A stretch of 64,000 nucleotides of DNA from Craspedostauros australis (lineage: Eukaryota > Bacillariophyta > Bacillariophyceae > Mastogloiales > Achnanthaceae). This document shows positions 26,464 to 61,829 of the stretch, in pieces. Each line of letters opens with the position of its first letter. Position 1 is the first letter of the stretch. The stretch spans positions 83,451-147,450 of the forward strand of contig JAMXDE010000076.1 in NCBI GenBank assembly GCA_026770025.1, written 5' to 3'. A program made the position numbers and the translations under genes. Below the pieces are notes generated by a model. That model saw nothing but the letters and a program-made list of their open reading frames with translations. It ran no database searches and was not told the origin of the DNA.

Positions 26464-26920
26464 CGCTGCCGTGATAAGGTCATCAGCCTTCTGTCAGCGT
26501 AATGAAATTGGCAGCCAACTGACCACACTCGTGAAAGCGACGGAGCTTCTGATTGGCGCTCGGCGTTTACAAAGCAAAGAAAGGTGTGTCGATGATTGAT
26601 ATCATACGATGCTGTATCACCTTAAACAACTGTAAGACAACTTCTCTCGTCTAACTCCACTGACTGCGAGCGAATCGAGTATGTGGATGTAGCACCCATG
26701 TGTATTCCCGTACGTGTTCTTGCCAAGATCGCAACGGTGATGCATCCGCAACGACGAGAAACCACGCAGTGTCAACACCAAAAAGCAACGAGAGTCACGA
26801 TAATACTATTACGATACTACTATTTGGGATACTCTATCTCCGGCGATCAGCATGTTTGACTTGCGGTCAACGAAAGTCAGAGGCGTCGGCAGCGAGAGTC
26901 GCAAAAACAAAACTGATGTT
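26464..26920. other. Intergenic gap between convergent genes
   Basis: This 3' flanking sequence lies between the LRR-like gene (plus) and the acidic membrane protein gene (minus). No gene is seen. Confidence 0.5.
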
Positions 26921-29854: not shown

Positions 29855-31327
29855 ATGGATGCTGTCGTCAACATCAATATCAACAGCGATCATGATCCAG
29901 ACTTCAAGACTTTCTGGAAACACCTCCATCGGAAATGGTGGATCCCAAAGACTGTGTTCAATGTGCAGAGTCATCCAAGACAGCAGATTTACTGCTACAG
30001 TGTCACACCCAAGCAGATGGAACACTGGGACATGGCCATCAACGCAGGATTCACCTTTGCAGACTTGGAATCGATGGTGAAGCGGCACAAGCACGTTGCT
30101 GTATCACCTCATGTTCTACTGAGCGATAGGTATTTCAGGGTCTGTTGGCAGATGTGTATTCGATACCCGTTTCTGGAATTCGGCTGCGATGACCAATTCG
30201 GAGAAGAAGACAAGCAAGCGATTCGCTTCGTACTTCGATTGGCTGCCAAACACCCACTCAAATCTTCATCCGACGAAGGCATCCATTTGACTCGGGACTT
30301 CGTGAAGATGAAGCAGCTACATGATATCCCTCTTGTGACACATCGTGTGGATTTGTATTCATGTGATCTTGTTGATTGCGACAACCTCATGTTCAACATC
30401 TCCCAAAATTCGAAATACGTTGTGTTTTATATCTGTAAGCTCGCCAATGGGGGCGCTGATTTGTGGAGATGGCTGTCTCCGAACAATTGCAGCGTCACCG
30501 GAGTATCCTTTTTCCGCACCCGTGTCACTTGCGATAATTTGGCAAAGCTATTCCAGTCAAACAAGCGCATCAACAAGCTCCACATCAGTCTCTGTCGGGA
30601 CAACAGCGCCCAACATATCTATTCACAACAAGAAATCGACCCGATCATCCAACTCCTTTCAGATGCATCACACCTGAAGAAGCTCAGTGTTTCCGGTATT
30701 TGGGACGGATCGTCGCGACAAGCGCAGATGACAAGGTTCGACGCATTGATATCGCTTCTGGGAAACAAGACCTTGCCATCTCTGACATGTGGTGCCTTTG
30801 GGGATCCCAACATGTTTGAAGCTCCGCCTGAGACCCTCTCGGCACAAATGGAAGCACTTCAGCAAGCCTTGGAGCAGACTACCCAACTCACCTATCTCCA
30901 CATTCGACCACGCCCGCCTGACGAACATGTCCATTCGTACAATGCGCTTGTTGAACGTATCTTGCGGCGAAATCATCGCAACAAGGTGAGAGCAGTTCTG
31001 TGTTCCCTTCCAACATGGTCGCAGCCACTGGCCCTGTTTGGAAAGATGCTGATGAGAACAAGCAAACATCGGAGTAGAATGACTGAAATGGCGGAAATGG
31101 GTCTCATGCGTCTAATGGGTCTAATCGGTGCAATGGATCCCATGAGCGAGACTTTCAACGTTCTGTTGCAGGGCAGTGAGACGTTGAAACAGGCGTGGGA
31201 TGACAAGAGAGAGGATCGGCTCGTCCAAATTGATGATCCTTCTGCTTGCGGTGTGGAAAAGAAAGACACATCGACGATTGATGAGATCCTGGATTGCCTT
31301 GGAGTACTCTGGTCGTCGAGTAATTAG
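29855..31327 (+). CDS. LRR-like protein, repeated family copy 2 (intact)
   Basis: A 490-residue intact frame and the longest of the three copies. The N-terminal block DPDFKTFWKHL and YSVTPKQMEHWDMAINAGFTF is shared with the others. Irregular leucine-rich repeats follow (RVDLYSCDLVDC, INKLHISLC, HLKKLSVSGIW, LTYLHIRPRPP). The C-terminus (VEKKDTSTIDEILDCLGVL) is shared with copy 3 but absent from copy 1. Most differences from the other copies fall at the non-leucine positions of the LRR strands. There is no signal peptide. Function unknown. It is the first gene of module A. Confidence 0.78.
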   Translation: MDAVVNININSDHDPDFKTFWKHLHRKWWIPKTVFNVQSHPRQQIYCYSVTPKQMEHWDMAINAGFTFADLESMVKRHKHVAVSPHVLLSDRYFRVCWQMCIRYPFLEFGCDDQFGEEDKQAIRFVLRLAAKHPLKSSSDEGIHLTRDFVKMKQLHDIPLVTHRVDLYSCDLVDCDNLMFNISQNSKYVVFYICKLANGGADLWRWLSPNNCSVTGVSFFRTRVTCDNLAKLFQSNKRINKLHISLCRDNSAQHIYSQQEIDPIIQLLSDASHLKKLSVSGIWDGSSRQAQMTRFDALISLLGNKTLPSLTCGAFGDPNMFEAPPETLSAQMEALQQALEQTTQLTYLHIRPRPPDEHVHSYNALVERILRRNHRNKVRAVLCSLPTWSQPLALFGKMLMRTSKHRSRMTEMAEMGLMRLMGLIGAMDPMSETFNVLLQGSETLKQAWDDKREDRLVQIDDPSACGVEKKDTSTIDEILDCLGVLWSSSN

Positions 31328-31968
31328 AACAGGGCATGAAGACAGTATTGATACTCTGGTGCATGTGAGTGTATTGTTGTAGGTGTAAGATGGAACAAGG
31401 GAGATGGTTGGGTGATTGGGAGGTTGATTGATTGGTTAATTGATTGGTTGATTGATTGGGAGGTGTTCGCCTGTGATTATGATTGCGATTGTGTGTTGTG
31501 GTAGGTGAGAAGCATGGAATGTCTAGATCGTTCGAGTATGGCTGGTCCATCAACAACAAGCGAAAGCCGTCCACATAATCTACCTTCATCACAGCGCGAT
31601 TTCGCACTCTTCCACACATTCTCATATCCTCGGAACAGCAGCACCCAGAAAGATCTTCTTCGCAAAGCCCGTTTTGTCCATGATGAAGAAGAACACATCC
31701 CAGAACTTGGCCAACGGCCCCAACGAGGACTCCAGCTATCCCAGCAGACCAACCTTGGCCGTGATATCCATGATGGTCGCGATGGTGGACCATCGCTTGT
31801 CCTTGTATTCTATCTGCAGGATGTCTTCGAGGCTGATCCCGCCATTGGCTTGTACATTGTACTGCATGGTGTACCGCTGAATGGCGTTGCCCAGACAATA
31901 AGCGTCTTCGATGGCCTGCTTAGTGTCCTGTCCAAGAAACTGTGGTATGGCGTGCGCTGGTGCCTCCA

Positions 31969-35596: not shown

Positions 35597-35599
35597 TTT
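35597..35599. repeat. Target-site duplication, left (TTT)
   Basis: TTT precedes the left terminal repeat and is repeated at 48477-48479. In the empty site of module B (61658-61660) it occurs once. Because flank and repeat share bases, CTTTG (5 bp) with a repeat starting one base later fits equally well. Confidence 0.8.
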
Positions 35600-35638
35600 G
35601 GAGGGGAAGGGAAAACGGCGTTTTTTTTAAATTGCGAC
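35600..35638 (+). repeat. Left terminal inverted repeat
   Basis: The first 28 bases (GGAGGGGAAGGGAAAACGGC, then GT and a T run) match the right end perfectly in inverted orientation. A further 11 bases match imperfectly and end in GCGAC on both sides, giving 39 bp with four mismatches. Confidence 0.95.
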
Positions 35639-36004
35639 GAAGGAAAACGAAAGTCGAAAAGGGATGCGGGCCACCAAATGGCGAAAAATTCTTGCGTATT
35701 TTCAAAAACTACTTGTGGCTTTTTTGCTCATTATCATGTTGTGCACGGACTGCATCTTGTTGTTTTTTGGCTTTTTTCATTCTGGTCCACGGATCCTTCG
35801 CCTCTTCATGCGATTCCACACATTCGACAGCCACAGAGTCAGCATGTTCCCCTCTCTTCGAATGGGGGTTGCGGATGTTGTTGTGGCTCTCTTGCCAGTT
35901 GACTTGTTGCATTCCATCAGCAGGATTCGTCTAGTTACAACAAGCAAACATTGTACATTCTGACTCCACTATTTATGGTATTCTCGTTTGCCTTGCTGAG
36001 GTGG

Positions 36005-39000
36005 TTAACTTGCATCACCACGGCGTTGTCGTGCTGACCTCCCACGGGTCCTCATCCCAGTAGTAGTCGGCTTTCTTCGTTCTTTCTCTTGGTCATCATG
36101 CTGGTGCTGTGATTGTTTGTCTCCTATTGCTTGTTCTGCCATTGTGAAATTATTCGTGGTTGCTTCCGCCGTTGTTGTGGGCACTGTTGCAACCTGCGGC
36201 GGCTGTTGGATGCTTCCTTCTGCTGTCTCTCCTCTTGCATCATCTTTTGGGACCGATTCGGTTGATGCCAAAGTTGCACTTGGCGATGGCATCCGGACTC
36301 CAGCTGTTTCGGCTCCTCTTTTTGATGCCGGTGATGGTGGTGATGGCAAGATCGCCACCTCCGTTTGGGCATCTGTTTGTGTTGTATGCTGCACACCGCC
36401 TGCCTGGGATGGCACGATCCATTGGGGTGATCCTGCTGTTGCCATCTCGTCTGGCCATGCCCTTATTCTTCCAATTTCTGAGACTTTCGAACTTCTGGTT
36501 GCTGGTGATTGTGGTGGTGTTGGCAAAATCGCCACCTCCGATTGGGCATCTGTTCCTGTTGTATGATGCACACTGCCTGCCTGGGCTGTTGGGATCTCTT
36601 GGGGCGATCCCACCACAGCAACCCCCTTTTGCTGTGCCTGTCCCCCTCCACTGTCTGAGCTTTCCACCAATACTCGTGCTGGTGATCTTGGTGGTGGCAT
36701 TGCCAGTGTGTCTGTTTGTGTTCTGTGATGTGCATCGCCCGCCTGGGCTGGTAGGATCCGCACAAGTGATTCCACTACAGCAATCGCCTCTTCCTGTGCC
36801 CCTCCTCCTCCACTGTCTGAGCTTTCCACCAATGCTTGTGCTGGTGATCTTGGTGGTGGCATTGCCTGTGTGTCTGTTTGTGTTCTGTGATGTGCATCGC
36901 CCGCCTGGGCTGGTAGGATTTGTACAAGTGATCCTGCTCCTGCCATCCCCTCTTCCTGTGCCCGTCCTCCTCCACGGTCTGAGCCTTCCACCAATGCTCG
37001 TGTTGGTGATCTTGGTGGTGGCATTGCCTGCGTGTCTGTTCGTGTTCTGCGATGTGCATCGCTTGCCTGGGCTGGTAGAATCCGTTGGAGTGATGGGTGA
37101 ATGCCACTGTTCTGGCTTCTTTCATCCATAGCAGTGCGACGGTGCGTGTACTGATCTGTACTGGCTCTCACACCTGCTGCTGCTGCTGCTGCTGGAGGTT
37201 CACCACCTGATCTGCTTGCCAACTGGCCGGCAGCATCAACCAACGCCGCATCGAGGGAGATATCCTCGTGCTCCCACCATCTGTTGGCATGTTGGGAGAC
37301 GTCCACATTGACATTGGGGCCACCTGCCATGGGCACTTGTGTGAGAGCACGAGGCTTCTTTGTTGCTTGGCTTTCTTCAGTTGCATCTGCAAACAATCTG
37401 GGTCTCTCTTGCAAGGTGTCCTCCCGTGCCCGCTTTGCACGCTTTTCCTCCACCTTGAGAGCCAGCTCAGCCTCCATCATCTCAAGCGTTGCCCGTTTGA
37501 TTTCAATACGATCTCGCATTATTTCGGTACTGTCTGTAAAAACTGACATGGTGTCGTCGGTGGCAGTCTGGGTTGCTGTCTGATGACTGATGGCAGAAAC
37601 CGTGGGTGTGGCTTGTTGGCCATGCAGCCTTGGCTGCGTTGCTGATGGTAGTTGTCTGTTGTTGTTGTGGTGACTGTCCGCTGCTGGGGTGGGGCGACGA
37701 CCTCCTAGGTGGATTGTGGGTTGGGGTGTTGATGGTGTCATGCTGTTGCCAGCCGTGGCAGCTGCGGTGCCGACCGTCATGTTCCTTGTGCTTGTCATAT
37801 TGGTGTTGATGTTGTGGGTGGCAACGTCAGTGGTGCAGTTCGGTGTGTTAGTGACTTGGTCACTAACATCAGGATGGCTTCCGTCACCATCTGCAAAGCC
37901 CAGACCATGGCACACAGAAAAGTGCCGGGTCACCCCAACATTGGTTGCTTCCTTCAAACGTACTGTTATTGTAAGCATGTTGTGGGTTGCACCATCATTG
38001 TCCTTCACAGCATGACGTAACCAGACCACTCCTCCCAATCTTCGGCATGGTGTGTCACAGAAGATGGAATCGATAGGAAATGGCATGGGTACAAGCATTT
38101 CCGAACGGAAGGACTCTGCAAAGTCTTCGTTCCGGAACTGTTGCACATGGGCAGAACGTTTCTGCCCTGCATCAGAGAAAGGATGACCCAACTTGTCAAT
38201 CAGGATGTCCACGATGCTTCCGTCCTTTCCAAAAGCCGTTGGTGGCTTGTATAGCAACACCAGGAACATCCGAGGTACTCCATCCACCTTCCGACTTTGG
38301 ATGGTCACTGTCGCATCATCCCTGGTGGTGCACGCAGGCATGTGGAAGTCAACCCCAACCATGCGATACCTTTCACCACGAGGTCTCCACACCTGAGTTG
38401 TGTGGAAGACCTCGATGGTGCGGCTCAGCTTTCGAAACTTTGCAACTCGTTGGGATTCTGATAGCTCAAAAAAGTGGCCGAATCTTGCAGAGATGGGGTC
38501 ATAGGGCATGCTCGTAGATCCACATTGGCCTGGTTGGTTGGTAGTGCCAAGGTATTCCATGTCATTGTCAGAATCTGTGCCCTCCACGTCATCTGATGAT
38601 TCAGATGACCCATCGGATGTGCTGCTGCTGCTGCTGCTGCTCTCATTTGTGCTGTTGATTCCAAGAGGGCGGGCAGTGTCACCTTCATGTGATGCTTCGT
38701 ACATACGGCCCCGTGTGCTTCGTCTGTTGGTGCTGTTTCTGCGTGTGTTGTTCCTGTTGGTTCCGCTCCTGGTGTTGTTGGCATGGCTGTTGGTGGTGTT
38801 ATGACTGGTGGAAGAGTTGGCATCGTGATTGGTTGGTTCCAACTCAGCATTTTTGGCTTCTGGTACATCCACAGGACGGAGGTTGGCACCAAGCCTATGT
38901 ATCGAGACCTTGTTTCGCTTGCCATCCTCTGCAATGGATGATGAAGAGATGAATGCCAAAGGTTGGAGTCATAGGAAAGATAGAAAATAGATGAGAAGGC

Positions 39001-39274
39001 ACCTGAATACAAGCAGACGAGTTCATGATGGAGCTTTGATTGTGTGGCTGGGCATGCAGTACTTACGGTGAAACAAACCCTTCTTCACCAATGTCCGTTT
39101 GAACTCACGTAGAGTCCGAACGAACTTCTTTGCATCATACTTGAGTAAGAACGAATGTTGCAGACGCAAAGGTGCTGCCTCCCAGTGCCATTTCGTGGGA
39201 TCAGCCAAGAATGCCTTCATGAGCTCATTGGCATCAGGCCCATTCTTGTAGAAACGTGGATCGGTGCCCACCAT
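36005..39274 (-). CDS. Transposon companion protein, 1043 residues, two exons
   Basis: My model joins 39274-39067 and 38928-36005 (138-bp intron, GTAAGT donor, TTGCAG acceptor, phase 1), giving an intact 1043-residue frame. Residues 1-69 resemble a small helical DNA-binding-like block (PDANELMKAFLADPTKWHWE, FLLKYDAKKFVRTLREFKRT), the place where Harbinger second proteins carry a Myb/SANT-like domain; this is inference. A Thr/Asn/Ser-rich linker and acidic tract follow, then a globular region (about 190-370; KFRKLSRTIEVFHTTQVWRP, VVWLRHAVKD). A charged helix (RDRIEIKRATLEMMEAELAL, about 535-570) comes next, then five tandem ~54-residue repeats built on ILPAQAGDAHHRTQTDTQAM and PPPRSP (about 675-960), and a basic tail. 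It is transcribed away from the transposase. No known enzyme motif is seen. Confidence 0.75.
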
Positions 39275-39313
39275 TGTGAAATGTCTCCAATGTTGTGCTG
39301 TTGAGTTGTTGGG

Positions 39314-41500
39314 TCAATGTGCAAATGTGTTGATGCGCCAATGTGCCCATGCATTGATGTGTGAATGTGTGAATGTGTTGATGTGTTGATGTGTTGATGT
39401 GTTGATGTGAGAACGTGTGGATGCGCCAATGTTCGGATGTGTTGATGCGAGGATGAGTGGATGCGCCAAGGTTCGGATGTGTTGATGCGAGGATGAGTGG
39501 ATGCACCAAGGTTCGGATGTGTTTATGTGAGGATGAGTGGACGCGCCAATGTTCAGATGTGTTGATGCGAGGACGAGTGAATGCGCCAATGTTTGGATGT
39601 GTTGATGCGACAACGCGTGGATGCGCCAATGTTCGGATGTGTTGATGCAAGGATGAGTGGATGTGCCAATGTTTGGATGTGTTTATGCGACAACGCGTGG
39701 ACGCGCCAATGTTCGGATGTGTTGATGCAACGATGAGTCGATGTGCCAGTGTTCGGATGTGTTGATGCGAGGATGAGTGGATGCGCCAATGTTTGGATGT
39801 GTTGATGCGACAACGCGTGGACGCGCCAATGTTCGGATGTGTTGATGCAAGGATGAGTGGATGTGCCAGTGTTCGGATGTGTTGATGCGACAACGCGTGG
39901 ACGCGCCAATGTTCGGAAGTGTTGATGCAACGATGAGTCGATGTGCCAGTGTTCGGATGTGTTGATGCAAGGATGAGTGGATGTGCCAATGTTTGGATGT
40001 GTTTATGCAACAACGCGTGGACGCGCCAATGTTCGGATGTGTTGATGCGAGGATGAGTGGATGTGCCAAGGTTCGGATGTGTTGATGCGACGACGAGTGA
40101 ATGCGCCAATGTTCGGATGATCGGATGCGCCAATGTTTGGATGTGTTGATGCAAGGATGAGTGGACGTGTCAATGTTCGGATGTGTTGATACGAGGATGA
40201 GTGAATGCGCCAATGTTTGGATGTGTTTATGCGAGGATGAGTGGACGCGCCAATGTTTGGATGTGTTGGTGTGAACGCGCGTGGACGTGCCAATGTTCGG
40301 ATGAGTGGATGCGCCAATGTTCGGATGAGTGGATGCGCCAATGTTCGGATGTGTTGATGCAAGGACGAGTGAATGCGCTAATGTTCGGATGTGCAGATGT
40401 GTTGATGTGTGGACGTGCCAATGTTTGGATGTGTTGATGAGAGGACGAGTGAATGCGCCAATGTTCGGATGTGTTGATGTGAGGATGAGTGGACGCGCCA
40501 ATGTTTGGATGTGTTGATGCGAGGATGAGTGGATGTGCCAAGGTTTGGATGTGTTGATGGGAGGATGAGTGAATGCGCCAATTCGGATGTGCAGATGTGT
40601 TGATGTGTGGACGCGCCAATGTTCGGATGTGTTGATGCGGGGATGTGTGGATGCGCCAATGGTCGGATGTGTTGATATGAGGATGAGTTGACGTGTCAAT
40701 GTTCGGATGTGTTGATGCGAGGACGAGTGAATGCGCCAATGTTCAGATGTGTTGATGCGACGACGAGTGGATGCGAGGACGAGTGAATGCGCCAATGTTT
40801 GGATGTGTTGATGCGAGAATGAGTGAATGCGCCAATGTTCGGATGTGTTGATGAGAGGACGAGTGGATGTGCCAATGTTTGGATGTGTTCATGCGACAAC
40901 GCGTGGACGCGCCAATGTTCGGATGATCGGATGCGCCAATGTTCGGATGATCGGATGCGCCAATGTTCGGATGATCGGATGCGCCAATGTTCGGATGTGT
41001 TGATGCGACGACGAGTGGATGCGCCAGTGTGCAGATGTGTTGATGCGAGGACGAGTGAATGTGCCAATGTTTGGATGTGTTGATGTGACGACAAGTGGAT
41101 GCGCCAATGTTCGGATGTGTTGATGAGAGGACGAGTGGATGTGCCAAGGTTTGGATGTGTTCATGCGACAACGCGTGGATGCGCCAATGTTCGGATGATC
41201 GGATGCGCCAATGTTCGGATGTGGTGATGCGAGGACGAGTGAATGTGCCAATGTTCGGATGTGTTGATGCGACGACGAGTGGATGCGCCAGTGTGCAGAT
41301 GTGGTGATGCGACGACGAGTGAATGCACCAATGTTCGAATGTGCAGATGTGTTGATGTGTGGACGTGCCAATGTTTGGATGTGTTGATGAGAGGACGAGT
41401 GAATGCGCCAATGTTCAGATGTGTTGATGCGAGGATGCGCCAATGTTCGGATGTGTTGATGCGCCAATGTTCGGATGTGTTGATGCGCCAATGCACCGAT
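39314..41500. repeat. 40-bp minisatellite array inside the transposon
   Basis: About 50 units of a 40-bp sequence built from GATGCGCCAATGTTCGGATG and GTTGATGCGAGGATGAGTG-like halves, with scattered point and unit-length variants (10-24 bp sub-repeats near 39370-39410 and 40920-40985). It lies directly upstream of the companion gene's start codon. All three minus-strand frames stay open over long stretches (His/Thr/Ser-rich, 40-residue super-period) because the unit lacks stop codons in that orientation. I treat these frames as non-coding. Confidence 0.95.
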
Positions 41501-42644
41501 TCGTTGGTGTGTGGGTGAGTGGGTGTGTGTGAGTGTTGCGATTTTGTTTTTATGGCCACATTGATTTGTTTTGGGGGGAACATGTGGGCATGTGGGTTGA
41601 TGGTGCAAATGTTGCCATCGTTTTCCAACACCTCTCTCTCTCTCTGTGTGTGTGTTGTGTGTGTTGTGTGTGTTGTGTGTGTGGGCGTCCTGGTCCGTTG
41701 GCATGGCATGTTTGGTTTCTCCCGTTATGACTTCGTGCGAAAACGAAACAAGCACGATCGTGAGTTCGCTGTGATGCCAATACCTTCCCGTGTTACCGCA
41801 AAAAGACGAATCAGTATCGGACAATTAGCCTGTGTGGTCGAGTACAACCTGGTGAATCGACGACAAGCGAATCGAAATGCCCCATTCCTCGGTGTTGGTG
41901 GCGAATGTCTTGGAATGTCGCAAACAGTCCATGCACGATCGGACAATCCATTGGGGTGGTTGAATACGACCTAGTGCATACGGATACGTATCAATGTCAC
42001 AGTAGATAAACACACCAAATGGCATCACAGTGGTCCAAAATCAAGGTATTTCGGTCCAAATCGGTCATCTCAAGGACTCACATAGTCCCAATTTTGTCAC
42101 ATCACGCACAACAGGCGACACAAATGGGTCTAAATAATGTTGTTTATCGTCGGAATGGACACGAAGGCATAAATTAGTCTCAAAATCACGTCAACCAGTA
42201 CTGAAAAGGGACTAACAAATGCCCAAATGGTATTGATTGCACCATTCCTCCTGAATGTGTCAGTTCAAAACTGCAACAACCACGTCAATATTCCTGGCAC
42301 ATCGTGCCACATGGAGCAGACCGTTCAAAACTGCAGTGTACGGACGAACCGACCAACATGTCGGGCGAATGGGCCCAAGGCGATACAGGAAAAACACTGG
42401 CTCTATGCGGAAAGCGAGGACGAGACGACAAAAAGAAGAATGTGTTCCACGAATCCAGGGCGAAATGCAACAAACAATGTCAACGTCGGAGGGAAACATG
42501 CCCAGTCAAACATGGCGCTTGTGACAAAATACTCCCGACCTTCGTCTCTGTGTCTGGGTCTGAAGGTGATGTTCGGTTCGTCACAAATTAGCCTGTCTGT
42601 TTTGCTTGTGTTGCGTGCTTGATGACTGACTACGATTAGTCCTG
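41501..42644. other. Spacer between the two arrays of the transposon
   Basis: Contains a TC/GTGTT-rich stretch (41630-41690) but no recognisable gene. The only frames are short and overlap on both strands. Confidence 0.5.
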
Positions 42645-45600
42645 ATTCTCAACACTCTGTACCCGGTTTGTTGGGATGGTAGTACATGGACACAACATGT
42701 ACGCACAAAATGGATTGAGGACAATCCAACCCAGCCCGTCCAATCCTCCTCTGTGTCTGTCGATGCTGGTCATGTTTGGTTCGTGATGATTTCGCCTGTG
42801 TGTTTGGCTGGTGTTGCGCGATCGAAAAAGTACGACAACCAGACCCTGTGTGTTCAATGACTCTCTGGTGCTGGTTGGTTGCAATAGTCCTGCACAGAGA
42901 CAGGCCAAATAGCAACATTGGCAATAACAACAACATCACATGTGCATAAATACTCGCACACAGACAGACATGGTCCTCTTGTTCTTCGTCTCTGTCTCTC
43001 TCTGTCTGTCGATGCTGGTCATGTTTGGTTCGTGATGATTTCGCCTGTGTGTTTGGCTGGTGTTGTGTGGTCGAAAAAGTACCACGAACAGACCCTGTGT
43101 GTCCGATGACTCTCCGGTGCTGGTTGGTTGCAATGGTCCTGCACAGAGACAGGCTAAATAGCAACATTGACGATAACAACAACATCACATGTGCATAAAT
43201 ACTCGCACACAAACAGACATGGTCCTCTTGTTCTTCGTCTCTCTGTCTCTGTCTGTCGATGCTGGTCATGTTTGGTTCGTGATGATTGTGCCTGTTTGTT
43301 TGGCTGGTGTTGCGCGATCGAAAAAGTACCACGAACAGACCCTGTGTGTCCGATGACTCTCCGGTGCTGGTTGGTTGCAATAGTCCTGGACAGAGACAGG
43401 CCAAATAGCAACATTGACAATAACAACAACATCACATGTGCATAAATACTTGCACACAGACAGACAGGGTCCTCCTGTTCTTCGTCTCTCTGTCTCTGTC
43501 TGTTGACAGCGGTTGTGTTTGGTTCGTGATGATTTCGCCTGTGTGTTTGGCTGGTGTTGCGCGATCGAAAAAGTACCACGAACAGACCCTGTGTGTCCGA
43601 TGACTCTCCGGTGCTGGTTGGTTGCAATGGTCCTGCACAGAGACAGGCTAAATAGCAACATTGACAATAACAACAACATCACATGTGCATAAATACTCGC
43701 ACACAGACAGACACGGTCCTCCTGTTCTTCGTCTCTCTGTCTCTGTCTGTCGATGCTGGTCATGTTTGGTTCGTGATGATTTCGCCTGTGTGTTTGGCTG
43801 GTGTTGCGCGATCGAAAAAGTACCACGAACAGACCCTGTGTGTCCGATGACTCTCCGGTGCTGGTTGGTTGCAATAGTCCTGGACGGAGACAGGCTAAAT
43901 AGCAACATTGACGATAACAACAACATCACATGTGCATAAATACTCGCACACAAACAGACATGGTCCTCTTGTTCTTCGTCTCACTGTCTCTGTCTGTCGA
44001 TGCTGGTCATGTTTGGTTCGTGATGATTGTGCCTGTTTGTTTGGCTGGTGTTGCGCGATCGAAAAATACCATAACCAGACCCTGTGTGTTCGATGACTCT
44101 CCGGTGCTGGTTGGTTGCAATGGTCCTGCACAGAGACAGGCTAAATAGCAACATTGACGATAACAACAACATCACATGTGCATAAATACTCGCACACAGA
44201 CAGACAGGGTCCTCCTGTTCTTCGTCTCTCTGTCTCTGTCTGTTGACAACGGTTGTGTTTGGTTCGTGATGATTTCGCCTGTGTGTTTGGCTGGTGTTGC
44301 GCGATCGAAAAAGTACCACGAACAGACCCTGTGTGTCCGATGACTCTCCGGTGCTGGTTGGTTGCAATGGTCCTGCACAGAGACAGGCCAAATAGCAACA
44401 TTGACAATAACAACAACATCACATGTGCATAAATACTTGCACACAGACAGACACGGTCCTCCTGTTCTTTGTCTCTGTCTCTCTCTGTTGACAGCGGTTG
44501 TGTTTGGTTCGTGATGATTTCGCCTGTGTGTTTGGCTGGTGTTGTGTGGTCGAAAAAGTACCACGAACAGACCCTGTGTGTTCGATGACTCTCCGGTGCT
44601 GGTTGGTTGCAATAGTCCTGGACGGAGACAGGCTAAATAGCAACATTGACGATAACAACAACATCACATGTGCATAAATACTCGCACACAAACAGACATG
44701 GTCCTCTTGTTCTTCGTCTCTCTGTCTCTGTCTGTCGATGCTGGTCATGTTTGGTTCGTGATGATTGTGCCTGTTTGTTTGGCTGGTGTTGTGTGGTCGA
44801 AAAAGTACGACAACCAGACCCTATGTGTTCGATGACTCTCCGGTGCTGGTTGGTTGCAATAGTCCTGCACAGAGACAGGCTAAATAGCAACATTGACGAT
44901 AGCAACAACATCACATGTGCATAAATACTCGCACACAGACAGACATGGTCCTCTTGTTCTTTGTCTCTCTGTCTCTGTCTGTCGATGCTGGTCATGTTTG
45001 GTTCGTGATGATTGTGCCTGTTTGTTTGGCTGGTGTTGCACGGTTGCCAAAATACCACGAACAGACTCTGTGTGTTCGATGACTCCGTACCCGGTTTGTT
45101 GCGACAACACTGCACGGACATAACAGACACGACAGACACAATGTGAACAACATTTCATGTGCAAATTGCCCATGAACAATCAGAACCAACACGCCCAATC
45201 CTCCTCTGTCTCTGCTTGTCGACAATCGTCATGTTTGGTTGATGATGATTGTGCCTGTTTGTTTGGCTGGTGTTGTGCGGTGGCCAAAATACCCACAACC
45301 AGACCCTGTGTGTTCGATGACTCCGTACCCGGTTTGTTGCGACAACACTGCACAGACATGACAGACACGACAGACACAATGTGAACAACATCGCATGTAC
45401 AAAAAGGTCCAGGAACAATCAGACCCAACATGTCCAATCCTCCTCTGTCTCTTTCTGTCGATGCTGGTCATGTTTGGTTCAGGATGGTGTTGCCTGTCTG
45501 TTTTGCTCGTGTTGCACGGTTAACAAAACACCACGACCAGACCCTGTGTGTTCGATGACTCCGTACCCGGTTTGTTGCGGCGACACTGCGCGGACATGAC

Positions 45601-45690
45601 AGACACGACATACATGATATCAACAACATCGCATGTGCGAATTACTCGCGAACAATCACATCCAACATGTCCAATCCTCTTCCATGTCTC
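42645..45690. repeat. ~247-bp satellite array with three-monomer higher-order pattern
   Basis: About 12 to 13 tandem units. The landmark TGTGCATAAA occurs at 42941, 43190, 43437, 43684, 43931, 44177, 44424, 44669 and 44916, spacing 245-249. It then degrades at 45159, 45396 and 45634 (spacing 237-243). Central units fall into three types that recur every third unit: units two, five and eight share an ACAAACAGACATGG variant, and units four and seven share GGACGGAGACAGG. The outer units form a more divergent type. Minus-strand frames run long across units, but the 247-bp period is not a multiple of three, and I do not call them genes. Confidence 0.92.
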
Positions 45691-45924
45691 TGTACGGCCG
45701 TCTTGTTAGAATTGTCGTTTTTGCGCCAAGCCAAACCTCCACAGACAGCCAAGATCAACGAGCCAAACAACATGCTGAAGTTTCCATGTTATTGTATGTT
45801 CAGCTCAAAGGACAATGGCAGTGCTTGTCCTGTCTGTGTTCCTCTCTGTTGCTGAATTGAATATTGCACTAGTGGATGTCACAATTTTGTCCTCCATCCT
45901 GTTGGCATACCAAGATACATCAGA

Positions 45925-46973
45925 ATGGCATCTGAAACCACAGAAACAACTGAGACAACCATTGTATGCAAGGGCATGAAGCTTCTGGGACAAGCGTTTG
46001 ATCCTACACTCCAGACTTCACCATCGTACGGCGTGCAATCATGTTTCCGAAGCAACTTTGGAACCCACACCAAAGTGGCTGCCATGGCATGGGATGGACT
46101 GAATGAGGAAGACTTACTGCCATGGAATACAACAATGGAGCACCTGCTATGCGCTCTCATGTTTCTCAAACAATATCCAACATGGGGTGTGCTGGCAGGA
46201 CGAATGGGAAAGGATGTGAAAACTGTACAGAAGTGGACCTGGATTATTCTTCGTGCATTGGCTCTCCTTAGCCGAGAACTTGTAAGTGACACAACTTGGG
46301 AACATCAACAGAGGAACCGCAATCTGTATGCTGCAATTGATGAATTGTGTGCCATATCTCTCACAATCTCTGCCTTTGCCAATGTTCACATGCGTTGATC
46401 TTATCCCAGATATGCTTTGAAGATCGGAAAATTGGCTGTCCACCAGGAACAACAACAATGGCATCTGTAGACGGTACTGACTTCCTCATCATGGAGCCTG
46501 CATTGTATGATCCAGGCTGGTATTCCCACAAATTCCAAGCTGCAGGGCTCCGATATGAAACTTGTATCTCCATTGTGACAGGGCACCTTGTGTGGGTGGA
46601 CGGACCATATCCTTGTGGGGAGTGGCCAGACATCAAGATTTATCGTGAGAAGCTACTGCATGCGTTGGATCCTTTGGAACAGGTCATTGCCGACCGTGGG
46701 TACAGAGGTGAGCGAAGCTGCTGCTTGGATCGCACTCGACGCAATGGTGTGATTCGTGCACGCCATGAAACCGTACACAAAAGGTTCAAGAACTGGAAGT
46801 GCCTGAAGCAAAAATGGCGGCACTTGCTGGAGAAGCACCAGTACACAATGTACTCGGTTGCCACAATCACGCAATTGGAACTGAAACATACAAATCCACT
46901 GTTTAACCTCAACCAAACAATGGGAATCATCAGGGAGATGGATGATTGGTTGGATTCCCTGGTGGAACCGTAA
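45925..46973 (+). CDS. PIF/Harbinger-type DDE transposase, two exons
   Basis: Catalyses cut-and-paste transposition at the terminal repeats. Exons are 45925-46281 and 46410-46973, with a 128-bp intron (GTAAGT donor, TTATCCCAG acceptor, phase 0), giving 306 residues. The N-terminal half is helical, with a helix-turn-helix-like segment (LAGRMGKDVKTVQKWTWIIL). The C-terminal half is a DDE_4-type nuclease fold. The proposed triad is Asp140 in SVDGTDF, Asp214 in IADRGYRGE and Glu239 in ARHETVHKRFKNW, in the order and context known for Harbinger-like enzymes. GPYPCGEWPD stands where the family has a GPxPGSxxD-like loop. The frame is intact with no stop, so activity is possible. The satellite array ends about 235 bp upstream, so the promoter lies in or next to it. 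Confidence 0.9.
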
Positions 46974-48437
46974 GAATAAGCAATACTCACATGCAATAAA
47001 CCAACAAAATTAGAAGTAGCAATAACAACAACCACTTTTCAATCTATTCGTCGCAAAGACTGCTGAAAAAACTTCAGTTGGCTGTGCCAACCAAGGAAGT
47101 AACCCAGGCTGAACCAAATTGGACTGGAGGAGCAATCCAGGTCTCTGAAGGTAGAGGAAAGAACAAAGAAAACAAAGAGAAGCAAGAGGAGCAATAGGAG
47201 CATAAAACACTTTGAACACAATCATGATTGTGTTGTTTGTGAACACATGACAGAGCAACAAGGAGTTGCTTGTGTAGCATAAGAACAACAACAGTGCATG
47301 CAGGCAGATAATTTTGGGACTCCTGCATTGAACTAGTCTGGGACATCATCGTGCTCCCCAAGGTTCATGCTTGGAGAGCTGGCCTGCTCGTCCAAGCTCT
47401 CCACATCCTGAAACGTAAAAGCAGCACTCCGCCAAAAGGAATCAGGCACATGACAACCACCACCATCATGGACGCCCAGCACGGAGACGGCCTGGACGGG
47501 ATGATATGGGGTGCACGGTCAATAGAGTACAGAAAGCACAGTCCCATATCTCCGTGAAGATTGCACCACCACAAGGACATGAACTGGCAAACCAAAGCAA
47601 CTTACGAGCTCCAACACATGGCACTACAACAAGGGTCCGGCCGAAATCACAAGCTCTGGGAAGAAGCCAAGCATGGCATGTTGTCCAAGTGCAAGGAATC
47701 GTTGTGAAGCCATATTAGAGCTACCGCAAATGCCCATACCTCCCCACCTCCATCAGCTTGCCCAGAACCTACTGGAAACCGATCCAAGCAGAGCAATACG
47801 GCTTCTAGCCATGACACATGGCATGCCGAATGTTGAGACCATGGTTCCTCCAGAGTAGCTGGCATGGATGCGCTGTGCACCATCTGCATCCAACATCCTG
47901 ACACTCAACCACACGTCCAGCACGCTTCACCTGATCCACTGTGGGAGCGGCCAGTGCCACCACGTGTTCCGCCTGTGCGTGCACTATGCATATGCTGGCA
48001 TACACAATTGCATGCAATCACACGGCAAGACAAGACCTGCTTACAGTATCTGTGCCCAATGCAGGTCTCCTGTGGAATAAACGAGGCGGTACAACAGCGC
48101 CTCCAGCTCACAGTTATAGACTATAGTCTATATGGTACAACAACAACAACATAACAAGAACTGTGCATAGCATGCATGGGGAGGAGGAGAGAAGCAGGTT
48201 GCAATGTCACCATGGTAGGTTGGTGTGCCATTAGTCGGTACAGGGAGGGTCGTGGCGATGTGTGCCTTCGAGTTGCGGACGAAGTCGCGATGACCAATGG
48301 ACTTGTTGTCCCAAACCCAAAGCAAGTCACAAATACACGAGGAAAGCAACAGCGAAACCTGTGAAATGACTGATTCCAACGAACAGCAGGAAAATTTGGA
48401 AAATAGCAACAATGGACCCACTTTCTATTCTTTCTGA
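46974..48437. other. Right arm of the transposon
   Basis: Between the transposase and the right terminal repeat there is no intact long gene. Coding-like patches occur at 47.35-48.1 kb, including a possible RING finger. A short palindrome (TATAGACTATAGTCTATA) lies near 48115-48132. Confidence 0.5.
47864..48080 (+). pseudogene. Possible RING-finger relic
   Basis: CTIC at the start is in one frame. The remainder (CGSGQCHHVFRLCVHYAYAG, NCMQSHGK, ICAQCRSPVE, stop) is in the next frame. Together they give CxxC, CxHxFxxC and CxxC spacing resembling a RING domain, with a frameshift between. It could also be an exon of a spliced gene covering 47.35-48.08 kb. Identity is tentative. Confidence 0.3.
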
Positions 48438-48476
48438 GTCGCTTTTACAAAAAAACGCCGTTTTCCCTTCCCCTCC
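48438..48476 (-). repeat. Right terminal inverted repeat
   Basis: Reverse complement of the left end, ending CCCTTCCCCTCC. 28 bp are perfect and 39 bp imperfect. Confidence 0.95.
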
Positions 48477-48479
48477 TTT
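48477..48479. repeat. Target-site duplication, right (TTT)
   Basis: Second copy of the TTT at 35597-35599. Sequence beyond it continues module A exactly as in module B. Confidence 0.8.
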
Positions 48480-48599
48480 GGCGATTGATTCGTTCGAGGG
48501 CGAGGCCCGCCAAATTCAGTGGTTTGTTCTGGTTGTGGATCTTGTCGCGTTGGTAACACTTGGTTGGAATTTGGCGGATGCCGACCAACAACCACAAAT

Positions 48600-50318
48600 T
48601 ACCACGAGCGAGAAAACCATTTCCTCGCACAACCAACACAACCAACGTGCGAGTAGCATCGCGAACATCGATCCACCCGATGATGAGGCCAGGGTCGATC
48701 TCCGTAGAGGCACCTTCTCCATCAAACACTTCGTCTCGCGCCCATTGCACTATGCCCAAACCGCCATGGCCCATCCAATCAACGAGGGCGACGACACCTC
48801 CAAGACGATCAGCAGCAGCAAGCAGCCGCAGCCATCATGGATCGCCACACATGACACCCGACGTCTACTCCGGGCAAGGCATCACCTGCGGACTCCGCCT
48901 ACGGCTTCGATGGAGGATGCAGGCTCGTTGGCAACACCTCCTGCTGCCAACCACGCAAGCCTTCACACCAGCGGCTACGACAAGAACAACCGCAGGAGTC
49001 ACCAACCTCCGCCACGACCATCAACTTCCAACCACACAGGAACCGCCCATCGATCGTGAGGATTAGGAGTAGATCCCGTCGAAATTACCGACGCATACCC
49101 TCCCCCACATGCCCACCTCCGCTTTTCAGAAGCCAAACCGTCGGCTTCGCAGCACAAGCGATGATGATGCTGGTGATGATCGTGACGAGGAGGATGAAGA
49201 GGAGGAGGATCCAACCCATGCGACAACTGCTGCTGCTTCGATCATTGAGCATGATGCAAATCATGCTCAATGATCTTGCCCAGCGCAACTTTATCCAGCA
49301 AGTGCAATTGATGGTGAGTGCGATGGCAAATATTGTACAGGATGACCATGACGATAAGGACACACAATCTGATGAGCATTGGCTCACGTGAATGATGTTG
49401 TCCGAATCGGATGATGAAAGTCAGCTTGTTCCAAAGTCCCGAAAACAACAGCAACCGCAACCGCAACCGCAACCGCAACCGCAACCGCAACGGCAGCAAC
49501 AACAACAGCCAACACCACGGTCGAAACCTGCAGAGACTGTGCTCCCAACAACAGCCAGATCCCTACATCCTCAACAGCCTGCTGCCGAACGTCAACATCT
49601 GGAAGTTGCCCTTCTCCACAAATGGTGAATCAGATGCATCCACGGTCCAAAACGCAACGACGCTCTCCACATACGAACCAGGAAGTCTCACATCCTTTTC
49701 GCGCAGCTACTAAACGGATGCCTCATCGTCACACTTTGATGGTGAGTCGGATCACAACAACAGTCGCACGCAGCTACTGCAAATGGTACACGAAACAGGT
49801 GACGAACAATCCGAGCTCGTTATTGGAGAAGTCCAATGACATCTCAAGCGCAACCCTGAGGCAATTGAGCCCGATGATGAGTGGTCCTTTCTATCATCAC
49901 CACTGGAGGAGCCAGCAAGACAGCTGCCTCAACCACGCGCCCCGCCGATCCAGTTTCATGGCCGAGTCAAAAATCTCTGCAGACTGAAGCAGGCCTGCCT
50001 CGATCCAAGAACCGCTGCGAGATTGCCATCGTCGATGGTGTTGCAGGCGTCGGCAAGACTGCCATCTGCCAACACTTCTTCGACAACGTCCGCGACGCTG
50101 CACTGATCTTGGGATACGCCAAGTTTGAACCGCCAATCGAGACGTCGCCCGGCATCCATGCATATGGACCCATCTGCACTGCCTTCGCCTCCCTCCTGCG
50201 TCAGGTCACGCAACGGAATGCATCCTGGATCCAACAGCATTTGCTGCAGGCTGCTGAGGCTCTCAGCATCATTCTTGCACAAACGCGTCGCTTCATCTTC
50301 GTGGAAACAATAACATAG
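48600..50318 (+). pseudogene. P-loop ATPase (AAA_16-like) relic, module A copy
   Basis: The last open part (49881-50318) contains an intact Walker A motif (DGVAGVGKTAICQHF at about 50034-50075). It is followed by ILGYAKFEPP and YGPICTAFASLLRQV, as in the N-terminal ATPase of large signalling proteins of diatoms (P-loop, then a KF or KYD segment and a 'Pxxxxxxaf' helix). The frame stops soon after, before any Walker B. Upstream pieces (acidic DDDAGDDRDEEDEEEEDPTH and Gln/Asn tracts) lie in other frames. A CAACCG microsatellite at 49458-49492 is shorter in module B. It reads as a truncated, frameshifted gene fragment. Confidence 0.5.
49239..49274. repeat. Perfect 16-bp inverted repeat with 4-base loop
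   Basis: Arms at 49239-49254 and 49259-49274 are exact reverse complements (left arm GATCATTGAGCATGAT) around GCAA. The module B copy near 62427-62459 has lost the perfect symmetry. Confidence 0.9.
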
Positions 50319-50495
50319 AAATAATGGTAGAACAGTTGCAGCACATACTAAAGGAAGAAGTCAGTATTTATTCAATCATTGCGCTATATTACTATTTACT
50401 ATCGTTTTTCTGTTGCTTTCATGGCTTTGTTGCTTGTGTCCTGATCTGCACTAGTTGGCGGAGCGGCTGCGGCTGTTGCTTGTGGGCCAGCAGTA

Positions 50496-51455
50496 TCAGT
50501 TGATGCTGTTGTCGGTGCTGTTGTCGGCGCTGTTGCCGTCAGCGCTGTCGATGCTGTCGATGACGCTGCTGTTGTCGATGCTGTTGTCGGCGCTGTTGCC
50601 GTCAGCGCTGTCGATGCTGTCGATGACGCTGCTGTTGTCGATGCTGTCGATGACGCTGCTGTTGTCGATGCTGTTGTCGGCGCTGTTGCCGTCAGCGCTG
50701 TCGATGCTGTCGATGCTGTCGATGCTGTCGATGACGCTGCTGTTGTCGATGCTGTTGTCGATGCTGTTGTCGATGCTGTCGATGACGCTGCTGTTGTCGA
50801 TGCTGTTGTCGGCGCTGTTGCCGTCAGCGCTGTCGATGCTGTCGATGACGTCGATGACGCTGCTGTTTTGGCCATCGCCACAAGTGGCGCACGTGTTACC
50901 AAGAAAGGAGTCGAAGATGGCAGCGGAGGTTTCGAAACCTTCCTCGACTTGGTCGTTGGCACGTTGCCAAAAATCCCGCACCAAATTCCGAGTCTGCGAG
51001 TGCCAATTCTGCTCATTCGAAGGCCGCGAGCTCGCTTCGGTGTGCCCCCCTCCACCATGTTCGCTGACGAGGCGTTCCTGTTCATTGTTGAGGTCACTGT
51101 CGACTTGAGGAAGGGCCTGCTGTTGTTCTTGGGGAAGGAGGTCGCGCAGGGCGCGGATGGCATTGTTCCCATGTCTGGCCCATACCACGAGCCCACAAAA
51201 GTCTCGTAGCACGGCGGTGACATCACTTGCGGAGATGTTTCTTGCATTCTTGGTCTTTTTTGCTGACGTCTTGAAACACCCCAACAACTTCTTCGTCTCC
51301 TTGCGCTCGTCGAGTGTACCGAGATCTTTGACTACCTTGTTGAGGAAGTTCAGAAGCGAGTGAACTTCCCACTTCTGTTTTGCGCTGTTGGTGGCTTGAG
51401 CGAGAGCAACAAGTGCCTCAACGTGTTCTTTTTCTTCGTCTGTGAAAGTCACCAT
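50496..51455 (-). CDS. Protein with helical N-domain and Ser-Ile-Asp repeat tail
   Basis: 319 residues from the ATG at 51455. Residues 1-130 are predicted-helical and charged (FTDEEKEHVEALVALAQATN, FLNKVVKDLGTLDERKETKK, ISASDVTAVLRDFCGLV). A linker with WHSQTRNLVRDFWQRAND follows. From about residue 195 the tail is built only of SIDNSSVID and SIDSADGNSADN units, ending at the stop. I do not recognise the N-domain. The acidic repeat tail is likely disordered. An alternative minus-strand frame through the repeats gives Ala/Ser/Thr units and ends at 50399, but lacks the N-domain. It is the last gene of module A; module B contains its 3' part. Confidence 0.6.
   Translation of the reverse strand: MVTFTDEEKEHVEALVALAQATNSAKQKWEVHSLLNFLNKVVKDLGTLDERKETKKLLGCFKTSAKKTKNARNISASDVTAVLRDFCGLVVWARHGNNAIRALRDLLPQEQQQALPQVDSDLNNEQERLVSEHGGGGHTEASSRPSNEQNWHSQTRNLVRDFWQRANDQVEEGFETSAAIFDSFLGNTCATCGDGQNSSVIDVIDSIDSADGNSADNSIDNSSVIDSIDNSIDNSIDNSSVIDSIDSIDSIDSADGNSADNSIDNSSVIDSIDNSSVIDSIDSADGNSADNSIDNSSVIDSIDSADGNSADNSTDNSIN
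50500..50870. repeat. Coding minisatellite of the Ser-Ile-Asp tail
   Basis: Nested 9- to 63-bp repeats built on GTCGATGCT, GTCGGCGCT and GTCGATGACGCTGCT. All keep a multiple of three, so the frame survives length change. The copy in module B (63660-64000) has lost this property through one-base indels. Confidence 0.9.
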
Positions 51456-52327
51456 GGTTGACGTTGTCGTTCGGATGTGTGCGTGTGCTGATGGGAAGTG
51501 CTCCTTCAGGTCAATTCGTTGGCCGATGTGGAAGGGGTGTGTGTCAAAGATTTGTGTTGCGAAGTTGCTCCATTTATGAAGAGGCAAATGGAGGACGAGG
51601 AGAACAACGAAAGAACTTGCACTTGCCGCGTTGTATCGCGTTGTATCGCGTTGTACCACGTTGTCTTTGGCGCAAAGTTGGAAAGACAAGCCTGGACCAC
51701 AAGCGGTTGACTTCGATCGTGGACCACAAGCGGTCGATTTTGATCGTGGACCCACGCTTCTGCACGTTGCAAGTTAGCGAGCATCCTTCTCAAAGGCAAC
51801 TGTCATTGTTTTGCATGTGTCGAATACCGTCAGAAGGAGCATTCGAACTGCAGCGTCAAAGCACAGAGTGCACAACATGCACACTCACGTCGAGCTCCTC
51901 TTTGAAATCATTGATTTGTTGTTTGGTGGACAGGTTGACCACCGCATTGATGGCTTGTTCCAGTTTTGTGATCGACCAGGAGTCCATTTTCGGTTGGACT
52001 CGACGTTATATAGACGTTAAATCGAGACAGAATTCAAATTGTCGTGTGACAACTTGGAGCAGATGGAAAAGGCAACTTGACATCACTTTGGCCACAGATA
52101 GATGTGTTCGACTGAGTCATGCCACCATCAATTGAACACATCTTTTGTGGAAAGTGGTTGTGAGCAGTATCGTTGCGGGAGGAGCGTCACGGCAAACGTG
52201 ACGGAGCGCTCCATCAACACAGCCCCTCCTCTCTCGACGTCAGCGATGACCAGGCACAAGCGATTTTCTCCCTTCCCGCTCTTTCCCATCATCGCCTCTC
52301 CATCATCACTACATTGGTGCTCCTTGA
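51456..52327. other. Intergenic gap
   Basis: No gene seen. It includes the upstream region of the Ser-Ile-Asp gene and short tandem repeats at about 51632-51662 (GCGTTGTATC type) and 51688-51752 (two to three copies of a ~24-bp GTGGACCACAAGCGGT unit). Confidence 0.5.
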
Positions 52328-53807
52328 TCACTTGGATGATTTGGCGGACTTACTCGTTTTGCTGTCTTTCGATGATTTTGACCCCTTCGCTTCCTTCATG
52401 CTCCAGGCCAGGGTTGGTTGAGAAGATGATGCGGAGGATGGTGTGGGCGAGGGCATGAATGGTGGTCCGGATGACGGCGAAGGTGACGGTGTGGATGATG
52501 GCAGAAGCGATGGCGCAGCGGATGTCATGTCCGATGGTGCAACCCGCAGCCAACACTGTCAGAGAGTCGTTGTTGCAGAACTCCAACGATCCCATGAAGA
52601 AGTCGTTGAAGCCTTCGTGAGGGACATCAGGATACTCTTCACCCTCTTCGCTTGACAACTCTGGGAACATGATGAACGGCCATCCCTCACATTCGAACCA
52701 GTCTGGTGTTGTAGGCTCGAAGTCCCCCGTGGCATCATTCCATGATTCTGTCTGCGTATCCACACGGATGGCGACCATGCCGTCGCTTGCTGAAAAAGAA
52801 AGCGGTGGATTGAACGAGATCACATCGGTGAACTCGTCTGCACCTCTCGCCTCGATGGTTCCGGATGCAATCTCCGTCCAGGTACCAGGCGCATCCCATG
52901 AGCTGGGATGGTAGAAGATGGAATATGGTTGATTACCCACGGTGGATAGAGCAGGTCTCATGCCAGTGATATCGACGGTGTCCACCACCTCAATATCGAA
53001 TCGCTGCGATTCCACTTGGTCGATAAAGAACGGCCGAGGAAGGCCCACTGCTTCCCCGCTTCGACAAGTAGCTGTCGGCGCCAGGGTCGGAGCGACAGAT
53101 GCCAAGGCTGTCGGTGATGCTGTGATGGAGGGGGAGAGTGATTCGGTTGGCGTCGCAGCGGCAAGGCCGCGACAGAATTCGAACACTCCCGGAAAAGCGA
53201 ATACAACATCTGGAACGATGCTGGATGGATTGTCATCAACTTCCACGCTGCCAAGTCCCGCAGGTACGCCGAACGGGCAATTCGGGCGGTCTTCAATGGG
53301 AGGCTCGAGGCAAGGTGGGGAAGTCCGCGCGGAAGTTCCTCAGCCGGTTTGCCATATCGATGCGAAAGGAAACCAGGCCAGTATCCGCTGGAAAGGACAG
53401 AGGCGAATCAAATGGAAGAGAGGCCGTGAAACCATCAGAGTCGACTTCTCCGTTGTTGCCAGAGGCGATCTGAGTCCAATTCCCGTTGTCCACCTGCCAG
53501 ATGTGGGGATGGAAGAAGATCTTGTATGGCATGTTAGAACAGCCAGGAGCCAGAAAACACATTGATGGAGTTAATTTGAACGTCTTCAACAATGAATACA
53601 TCGAATCTGAGAGGTTGAGAGGTTTGATTCAAGAGGTCTCCGTCAGTGGCTGCGAATCTCCATTCCTCGCAAAGCGGTGCCGGTGTGGGATGCTGCAGCG
53701 TGATGTCATAGTTGTTGTGAGGGGTACAGTTGTTGCAGTTCAAGTTGATTGAGCGAATTCGTTCCGTCCGATTTGTTGTGATGATCGCAAGTACAGGCAG
53801 CGTGAAC

Positions 53808-53845
<38 letters not shown>

Positions 53846-54119
53846 TGGCGGAAGAGTCCGGAGTGAGTGCGAGCATACATACATGCTACACACATGCATA
53901 CATCCATGCATGTATACGAACGAATGGACGTATTGTACGGATTCAGCAGGCGAAGAACCCAACATGGAAGACGTCAGTGAAGGCCACCAGAGGGCAATGA
54001 GTGCGATGATCCGGGTGACTCACCGTTGTATTCCCCATGGCGCTTGCTGTTGGGACTGCACTCGCAGCGATCATCGCCGCAAATAGTGCATCAGCGTCGA
54101 ATGGCCACAGTGCCTTCAT
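52328..54119 (-). pseudogene. Secreted two-domain protein, frame broken about three times
   Basis: Exon 1 (54119-54024) encodes a signal peptide (MKALWPFDADALFAAMIAAS, then AVPTASA) and ends at a GTGAGT donor. A CAG acceptor at 53693 fits in phase (331-bp intron). Two homologous ~150-residue beta-rich domains follow: domain 1 has LRFDVFIVEDVQINSI and YKIFFHPHIWQ...WTQIASG, domain 2 has RFDIEVVDTVDITGM and YSIFYHPSSW...WTEIASG. The best-fitting C-terminus is a Ser/Pro/Lys-rich stalk (PSPTPSSASS, KGSKSSKDSKTSKSAKSSK) of a kind common in diatom surface proteins. Frame changes are needed near 53560 (in a T run), near 53300 and near 52540. The gene is either decayed or the consensus has indel errors. 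Function unknown, probably cell-surface. Confidence 0.55.
53813..53841. repeat. (GA)n microsatellite
   Basis: About 14 GA units within the intron of the secreted-protein gene. On the coding strand it is a long polypyrimidine tract 120 bp before the acceptor. Confidence 0.95.
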
Positions 54120-57624: not shown

Positions 57625-57789
57625 AACAGCGAATGAAGACAGGATTGATACTCTGGTGCATGTGAGTGTGTTGTTGTATGAGTAGGATGGAACAAGGGAG
57701 ATGGCTGGGTGATTGTGATTGCGTGTTGTGGCTGGTGAGAAGTATGGAATGCCTATTAACAGCAAACGAAAGCGTCCACGGAACCTATC

Positions 57790-60461: not shown

Positions 60462-60495
60462 CAGAAGTGGCAGCAGAAGCGGTATCCGTTATCCA

Positions 60496-61657: not shown

Positions 61658-61660
61658 TTT
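61658..61660. other. Empty transposon insertion site
   Basis: TTT present once, flanked left by the sequence found at 35581-35596 and right by that found from 48480. This is the unoccupied counterpart of the 12.9-kb element site. Confidence 0.92.
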
Positions 61661-61829
61661 GGCGATTGATTCGTTCGAGGGCGAGGCCCGCCAAATTCAG
61701 TGGTTTGTTCTGGTTGTGGATCTTGTTGAGCTGGCAACTTGTTTGGAATTTGGCGGATGCCGACCAACAACCACAAATTACCACGAGTGAGGAAACCATT
61801 TCCTCGCACAACCCAGCACAACCAACGTG

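Follow-up and report, generated by a model that had tools for sequence, protein, structure and literature searches.

The window analysed here comprises 64,000 nucleotides of the Craspedostauros australis genome (assembly GCA_026770025.1, contig JAMXDE010000076.1, positions 83,451 to 147,450 of the forward strand) and contains a DNA transposon of 12,877 bp with two genes. One encodes a transposase of the DDE_Tnp_4 kind, the other a second protein that we refer to as the partner. The two genes are divergent, arranged head to head, and are separated by two tandem arrays with a spacer between them; array 1 adjoins the partner and array 2 adjoins the transposase (Table 1). We find that this element belongs to a family of complete, recently mobile transposons and that it is related to the usual few-kb Harbinger elements but larger and built in a different way. 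The family is unusual in its size, its gene order, and its recurring twin arrays.

Table 1. Features of the transposon and of its empty site, in window coordinates.
Feature	Position	Strand	Basis
Whole element, 12,877 bp	35600..48476	.	Paralogous empty site and comparison with 22 other end pairs
Target site duplication, left copy, TTT	35597..35599	.	Sequence
Left terminal inverted repeat, 28 bp, GGAGGGGAAGGGAAAACGGCGTTTTTTT	35600..35627	+	Sequence
Partner gene exon 2, includes stop	36005..38928	-	Open frame; homologues in other subfamilies; domain dN/dS 0.11-0.15
162/177-bp tandem repeats within partner coding sequence (~54-amino acid repeats near C terminus)	36335..37084	-	Repeat analysis
Partner conserved domain, 236 amino acids, no significant Pfam match, no reliable fold	37835..38542	-	Alignment
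Partner gene exon 1, predicted three-helix domain	39067..39274	-	Open frame, structure prediction
Array 1, unit lengths 8-120 bp in multiples of 8, mainly 40 bp; GATG 147 times, CATC 0 times on + strand	39305..41493	.	Repeat analysis
Spacer between arrays, probably noncoding	41494..42737	.	Core ~41794-42543 conserved between subfamilies
Open frame of 131 amino acids in spacer, weak constraint, probably not a gene	42227..42622	+	Partly common to other subfamilies
Array 2, ~12 copies of a 247-bp unit	42738..45693	.	Repeat analysis
Transposase exon 1	45925..46281	+	Splice site inferred
Transposase exon 2, DDE_Tnp_4 domain (VDGTDF / ADRGYRG / RHETVHKRFKNW)	46410..46973	+	Pfam, open frame
Right terminal inverted repeat, 28 bp	48449..48476	-	Sequence
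Target site duplication, right copy, TTT	48477..48479	.	Sequence
Paralogous empty site, single TTT, module B	61658..61660	.	Same flanks as module A, alignment

Limits of the element and assembly of the locus

The element can be delimited to the base. Its two ends are perfect inverted copies of each other over 28 bases, and a TTT triplet stands on either side. When 1 kb of flanking sequence from each side (module A) is joined, it matches module B in one alignment of 2,019 columns at 93.7% identity, with the element absent. The A and B flanks form a segmental duplication, 96.5% identical over 3.6 kb on the left and 92.5% identical over 2.3 kb on the right. An earlier note on this DNA had claimed a complete transposon of 12.9 kb with exact limits, perfect 28-bp inverted repeats, a 3-bp duplication, and an unusual size. 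All of this is supported by the ends, the duplication, and the empty site, and its length compares with a mean of ~4,124 bp for autonomous PIF/Harbinger candidates (PMC4482050).

A second contig (C4) breaks off within the element and overlaps the contig of the window (C74), so this region is evidently hard to assemble. Identity between the end of C4 (C4:3361927-3376086) and C74 is ~100% in the stretches tested within window 44959-55000. Two aligned stretches show 99.9 to 100% identity, with indels only and no mismatch, and window 52000-55000 also matches at ~100%. Most likely, the two represent one locus assembled twice or the other haplotype. Because C4 ends inside the element, the left junction is known from C74 alone; the right junction is read on both contigs. 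One could take the overlap as a sign of misassembly, or of unrelated repeats fused into a chimera, but we regard this as extremely improbable. A separate insertion, at C4:2168830-2182708, repeats this order of parts over 13,879 bp, with a CAA duplication and 99.6% identity to the window copy around the transposase, and other copies already refute an artefact for the family. The concern of the earlier note that the junctions might be assembly joins is thus weakened by the right junction on C4 and by the same ends in other copies, although it retains some force for the left junction.

A multicopy family with recent movement

As the earlier note had proposed, we searched the whole genome (74.8 Mb, 90 contigs) with the terminal sequence in both orientations and read the flanking triplets. 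Allowing up to 2 mismatches, we found the 21-base end sequence at 29 places on each strand and its reversed control at none; a longer end pattern (up to 3 mismatches) occurs 34 and 31 times, with 0 and 0 for the control. From the 21-base search, 46 of 58 ends formed 23 convergent pairs with spacings of 1,950 to 33,082 bp, and we read the flanks on both sides of each. The terminal repeats therefore do occur as pairs elsewhere; had they not, the earlier note would have counted its claim as refuted. A 3-bp duplication flanks 22 of the 23 pairs, directly in 19 cases and after a one-base shift in three (C57b, TTG; C1, TGG; C34, TTG or TTGG), where the shift is needed because the terminal G run varies in length. 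The direct duplications are AAA (three), AAG, CAA (three), CAG (two), CAT (three), TCA, TGC, TTT (two), ACA, TGG, and TTG; two of the three AAA pairs sit in one duplicated segment on C2. CA or TG is contained in 16 of the 22 duplications.

Most end pairs (14 of 23) span 9 to 14 kb. The longest (27 to 33 kb) are likely to contain nested insertions. On C2, two elements of 1.95 kb with these ends (C2:251161-253111 and C2:303004-304953) have the same immediate flanks and lie 52 kb apart; they are probably a short deleted derivative in a duplicated segment.

A second empty site was found for the C10 copy, whose joined flanks, 500 bases in all, match C48:235239-235738 along their full length at 93% identity. 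Further partial matches cover most of the 500 bases on C18 (86%), C1 (82%), and C36 (80%). For the C4:2168830 copy, no empty site was found; its joined flanks matched only their own two halves.

Over ~2.2 kb around the transposase, identity among the copies on C10, C11a, C36, and C66 reaches 100.0% when rounded to 0.1, and these copies occupy different sites with the duplications CAA, CAT, TGC, and TTG. Four near-identical copies at four different sites indicate recent movement of the family. Over the same interval, the window copy is 98.2% identical to the copy on C14, and other subfamilies are ~75 to 80% identical to it. The recent activity suggested in the earlier note is thus borne out for the family. 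That note had treated a single element, to which we add a multicopy family with subfamilies and a divergent gene arrangement.

A genome search with transposase exon 2 yielded 326 candidates and scored 150 of them, so that there are at least 150 scored matches to this kind of transposase. Thirty-eight of these lie at 66 to 69% identity and are of at least two kinds, one of which has its own ends, GGGGGGCAGTTCAAAATGC. Relatives near 50% identity have an element of ~6 kb. Examples of relatives are found at C28:364000-371999 (L063) and C1:1143000-1152900 (L092). No relatives were found in viral contigs or in plasmids.

Two proteins under purifying selection

Both genes described in the earlier note as intact are open, given one predicted GT-AG intron each. 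The transposase would be 306 amino acids long. Its exon 2 alone scores 26.1 bits against Pfam DDE_Tnp_4, above the cutoff of 24.8, and genomic relatives at 64% and at 50% identity also match that family, with E values of 1.4e-7 and 1.1e-11. We take the conserved D, D, and E of the transposase to be the catalytic triad. No stop interrupts exon 2 in 16 of 20 full-length or nearly full-length matches at 77% identity or more. Among eight copies, the ratio of nonsynonymous to synonymous substitution rates (dN/dS) is 0.04 to 0.19 in 27 of 28 pairs; the omitted pair, window and C4a, has too few silent changes.

The predicted partner is 1043 amino acids long. In 13 of the 16 copies with a stop-free exon 2, the matched parts of the partner, not every exon, are stop-free as well. 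Of the other three, the C5 and C15 partners have stops, and the contig of the C4-end copy stops before the partner. The dN/dS of the partner domain is 0.11 to 0.15 in three of five pairs and 0.10 within another subfamily, and one pair is saturated. By these low ratios, transposase and partner are under purifying selection, and both have been kept by it.

The partner has no significant relative in PDB or Pfam (best E 0.75), with nothing in Pfam for the window member; the partners of other members matched three weak Pfam families, with a best E of 0.055. The strand pattern had raised the idea of an Hsp20-like fold or another known one; this was rejected, as the structure model had a mean predicted local distance difference test (pLDDT) score of 40 and was unusable. 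The partner yielded no clear Myb/SANT domain: for exon 1, considered as Myb/SANT or SWIRM, there were weak fold matches only (best Foldseek E 1.9), and neither assignment was adopted. Homology of the partner in the 50%-identity group (L092) to that of the window element was not supported, at a profile comparison probability of 1.1% from two shallow profiles.

Twin arrays and spacer in the central region

The two arrays fill 5,145 of 12,877 bp. The earlier note had reported two internal satellite arrays; these are real, but they are not an oddity of one copy. Both arrays are present, in the same order, in all five members read (window, C4:2168830, C10, C1, and C34). In all four array 1 sequences compared, C4:2168830 being left out, there is an 8-bp period, with an identity of 0.43 to 0.56 at a shift of 8 and 0.12 to 0.28 at shifts of 7 or 9. 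GATG occurs 147, 56, 60, and 26 times in these four sequences, and CATC 0 times in each. The best periods of array 2 are 247, 214, 214, and 224 bp, and its pieces align between members at ~63 to 74%, for C34 in short pieces only. Array 2 was considered as the seed of a genomic satellite and rejected: searches with two of its units, which skip very common words and so give lower bounds, placed all 60 reported genome matches within members of this family.

The matching interval is filled by two different arrays, of 60 and 48 bp, in a subfamily at 64% transposase identity, of which one member was read (C28, L063).

We take the spacer to be regulatory rather than coding. Its open frame is common to C10 (91 amino acids) and C34 (145 amino acids), and has two stops in C1. 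The dN/dS of this frame is 0.58 to 0.69, compared with 0.91 to 1.30 in the two other frames, and lies far above that of both real genes. Between the window copy and C10, 3 of 26 gaps in the spacer are multiples of 3. These three points together make a third gene in the spacer unlikely. The motif GTTCAAAACTGC occurs in the spacer at window 42263 and 42323, twice in C4a, once each in C10 and C34, and not in exact form in C1.

Neighboring sequence

Elsewhere in the window, 15256-18177 and 18628-19794 hold an ankyrin-repeat ion channel that also has a cyclic-nucleotide-binding domain, together with a partial formate-tetrahydrofolate ligase gene. Tandem segmental duplications cover 24413-31418 and 55480-63905, with a related gene present three times (25105, 29855, and 56112) and the larger A/B module. 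Window 52000-55000 has more long copies, at 87 to 97% identity, on C4, C51, and C63.

Proposed mechanism

We propose that the element is an autonomous cut-and-paste transposon of the PHIS (PIF/Harbinger-IS5-like) superfamily, from a recently active family, whose genes are read outward from a central and most likely shared regulatory region. We consider this well supported, with a probability of roughly 85%. The transposase and the partner would be expressed outward, head to head, from the central region and, by analogy with known Harbingers, may act jointly at the 28-bp ends to excise the element, which would then insert at 3-bp sites rich in CA or TG. Array 1, the conserved spacer, and array 2 would most likely form the shared regulatory region of both genes. 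The array repeats expand and contract, probably through slippage or when the donor gap is repaired from a sister copy; this accounts for about 40% of the element length here.

Several observations weigh against this interpretation. Twelve of the 58 ends in the 21-base search could not be paired and are left out of the counts, and one of the 23 end pairs (C42) has no duplication. The spliced transposase scores 23.5 bits against DDE_Tnp_4, just below the cutoff of 24.8. The role of the second open reading frame (ORF) is called unclear in PMC4482050. Because the spacer frame is common to several members, a small third gene is possible. The element of the 50%-identity group (L092, aligned part ~6.06 kb) has no arrays in the stretch read, and arrays are therefore not required for transposition in general. 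Lastly, the regulatory role is argued from the position and persistence of the arrays, and the arrays would look no different had they expanded passively where expansion is tolerated.

This last point leads to an alternative with nearly even odds, in which the arrays are neutral by-products in an interval where slippage is tolerated, and junk repeats have lengthened an otherwise ordinary Harbinger-like transposon. The arrayless L092 element fits this, as do the differing lengths of elements and arrays between close copies (12,877 bp for the window copy and 13,879 bp for C4:2168830) and the drift of array 2 units between subfamilies. In Medicago, 60-bp repeats in PIF/Harbinger elements were linked by the authors to abortive gap repair (PMC2213677). 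Against this alternative, both arrays persist at two matching places in all members read, across subfamilies ~20% apart in DNA; every array 1 compared retains the 8-bp period and the one-sided GATG content; and different arrays fill the matching interval in the one member read of the 64%-identity group.

Classification

By its transposase, the element belongs to the PHIS superfamily; its target sites, compared with those published for each group, set it apart from PIF/Harbinger. The DDE_Tnp_4 match and the inverted repeats with a short duplication are superfamily features, although Spy has no duplication. PIF/Harbinger elements are defined by TWA duplications and described as having a second ORF with Myb/SANT, and PMC12477816 gives a looser TNA duplication for Harbinger. 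Among the 22 duplications, none is TAA or TTA, and one (TCA) fits TNA. The Harbinger-like label of the earlier note thus stands at the level of the superfamily and is not supported at that of the PIF/Harbinger group. The 3-bp duplications also differ from those of ISL2EU (AT) and Spy (none).

The other groups described in PMC4482050 are Pangu (ANT), NuwaI (CWG), and NuwaII (C|TNA|G). Membership in one of these, rather than in a group of its own, is unlikely. Pangu ends usually begin with AG or GG, as they do here with GG, and its second ORF has no detected motif, as the partner has none in Pfam, although the discussion of the same paper nonetheless credits Pangu with Myb/SANT. Two duplications (CAG) fit CWG, and one (TCA at C15, with C before and G after) fits C|TNA|G. 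Against this, none of the 22 is ANT, 20 are not CWG, and 21 do not fit C|TNA|G. In a bolder reading, which seems to us rather doubtful, the family would found a PHIS group of its own (CA/TG-rich 3-bp sites, head-to-head genes, and a partner of unknown fold). Its two arrays, one of them kept to an 8-bp period on one strand, would then be obligate binding parts by which the partner or the transposase controls both genes or joins the ends.

Significance and comparison with known systems

The family supplies naturally occurring copies of a large Harbinger-like element that are nearly identical and apparently intact, together with empty sites. Its clean set of target sites departs from the TWA rule, offering a test case for shifts of target choice within a superfamily. 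It is also a test case for the role of the second protein, and for whether transposon arrays are regulatory or by-products of repair. Among titles and abstract openings in the open-licence literature, we found no PHIS element whose divergent genes enclose two arrays.

Known Harbingers require both of their proteins (PMC2836001). The element shares with PIF/Harbinger, as portrayed in PMC4482050, a DDE_Tnp_4-kind transposase, a second ORF, short inverted ends, and 3-bp duplications; it differs in its target triplets, in its length of 12.9 kb against ~4.1 kb, and in its twin internal arrays. Its likeness to Pangu, including members in Ectocarpus (PMC12477816), extends to 3-bp duplications, whereas the ANT sites are absent here and the Pangu average of ~3.5 kb (PMC4482050) compares with 12.9 kb. 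Autonomous Harbingers of Ectocarpus have tail-to-tail genes and ANT or TNA sites (PMC12477816), unlike the head-to-head genes described here.

Long tandem arrays are found in the Harbinger-like MtPH-A6-4 of Medicago, which has 60-bp repeats in 2 to 35 copies and varies in length; the same study describes elements of up to 25,288 bp, with nested insertions in the longest (PMC2213677). In the family described here, by contrast, two different arrays lie between divergent genes in every member read, and a related subfamily has other arrays. The giant transposons of Ectocarpus are likewise DNA transposons of more than 10 kb, but they belong to other superfamilies (KDZ, EnSpm, and Sola-1), most families having nested insertions and many having extra genes (PMC12477816), where the present element has internal tandem arrays.

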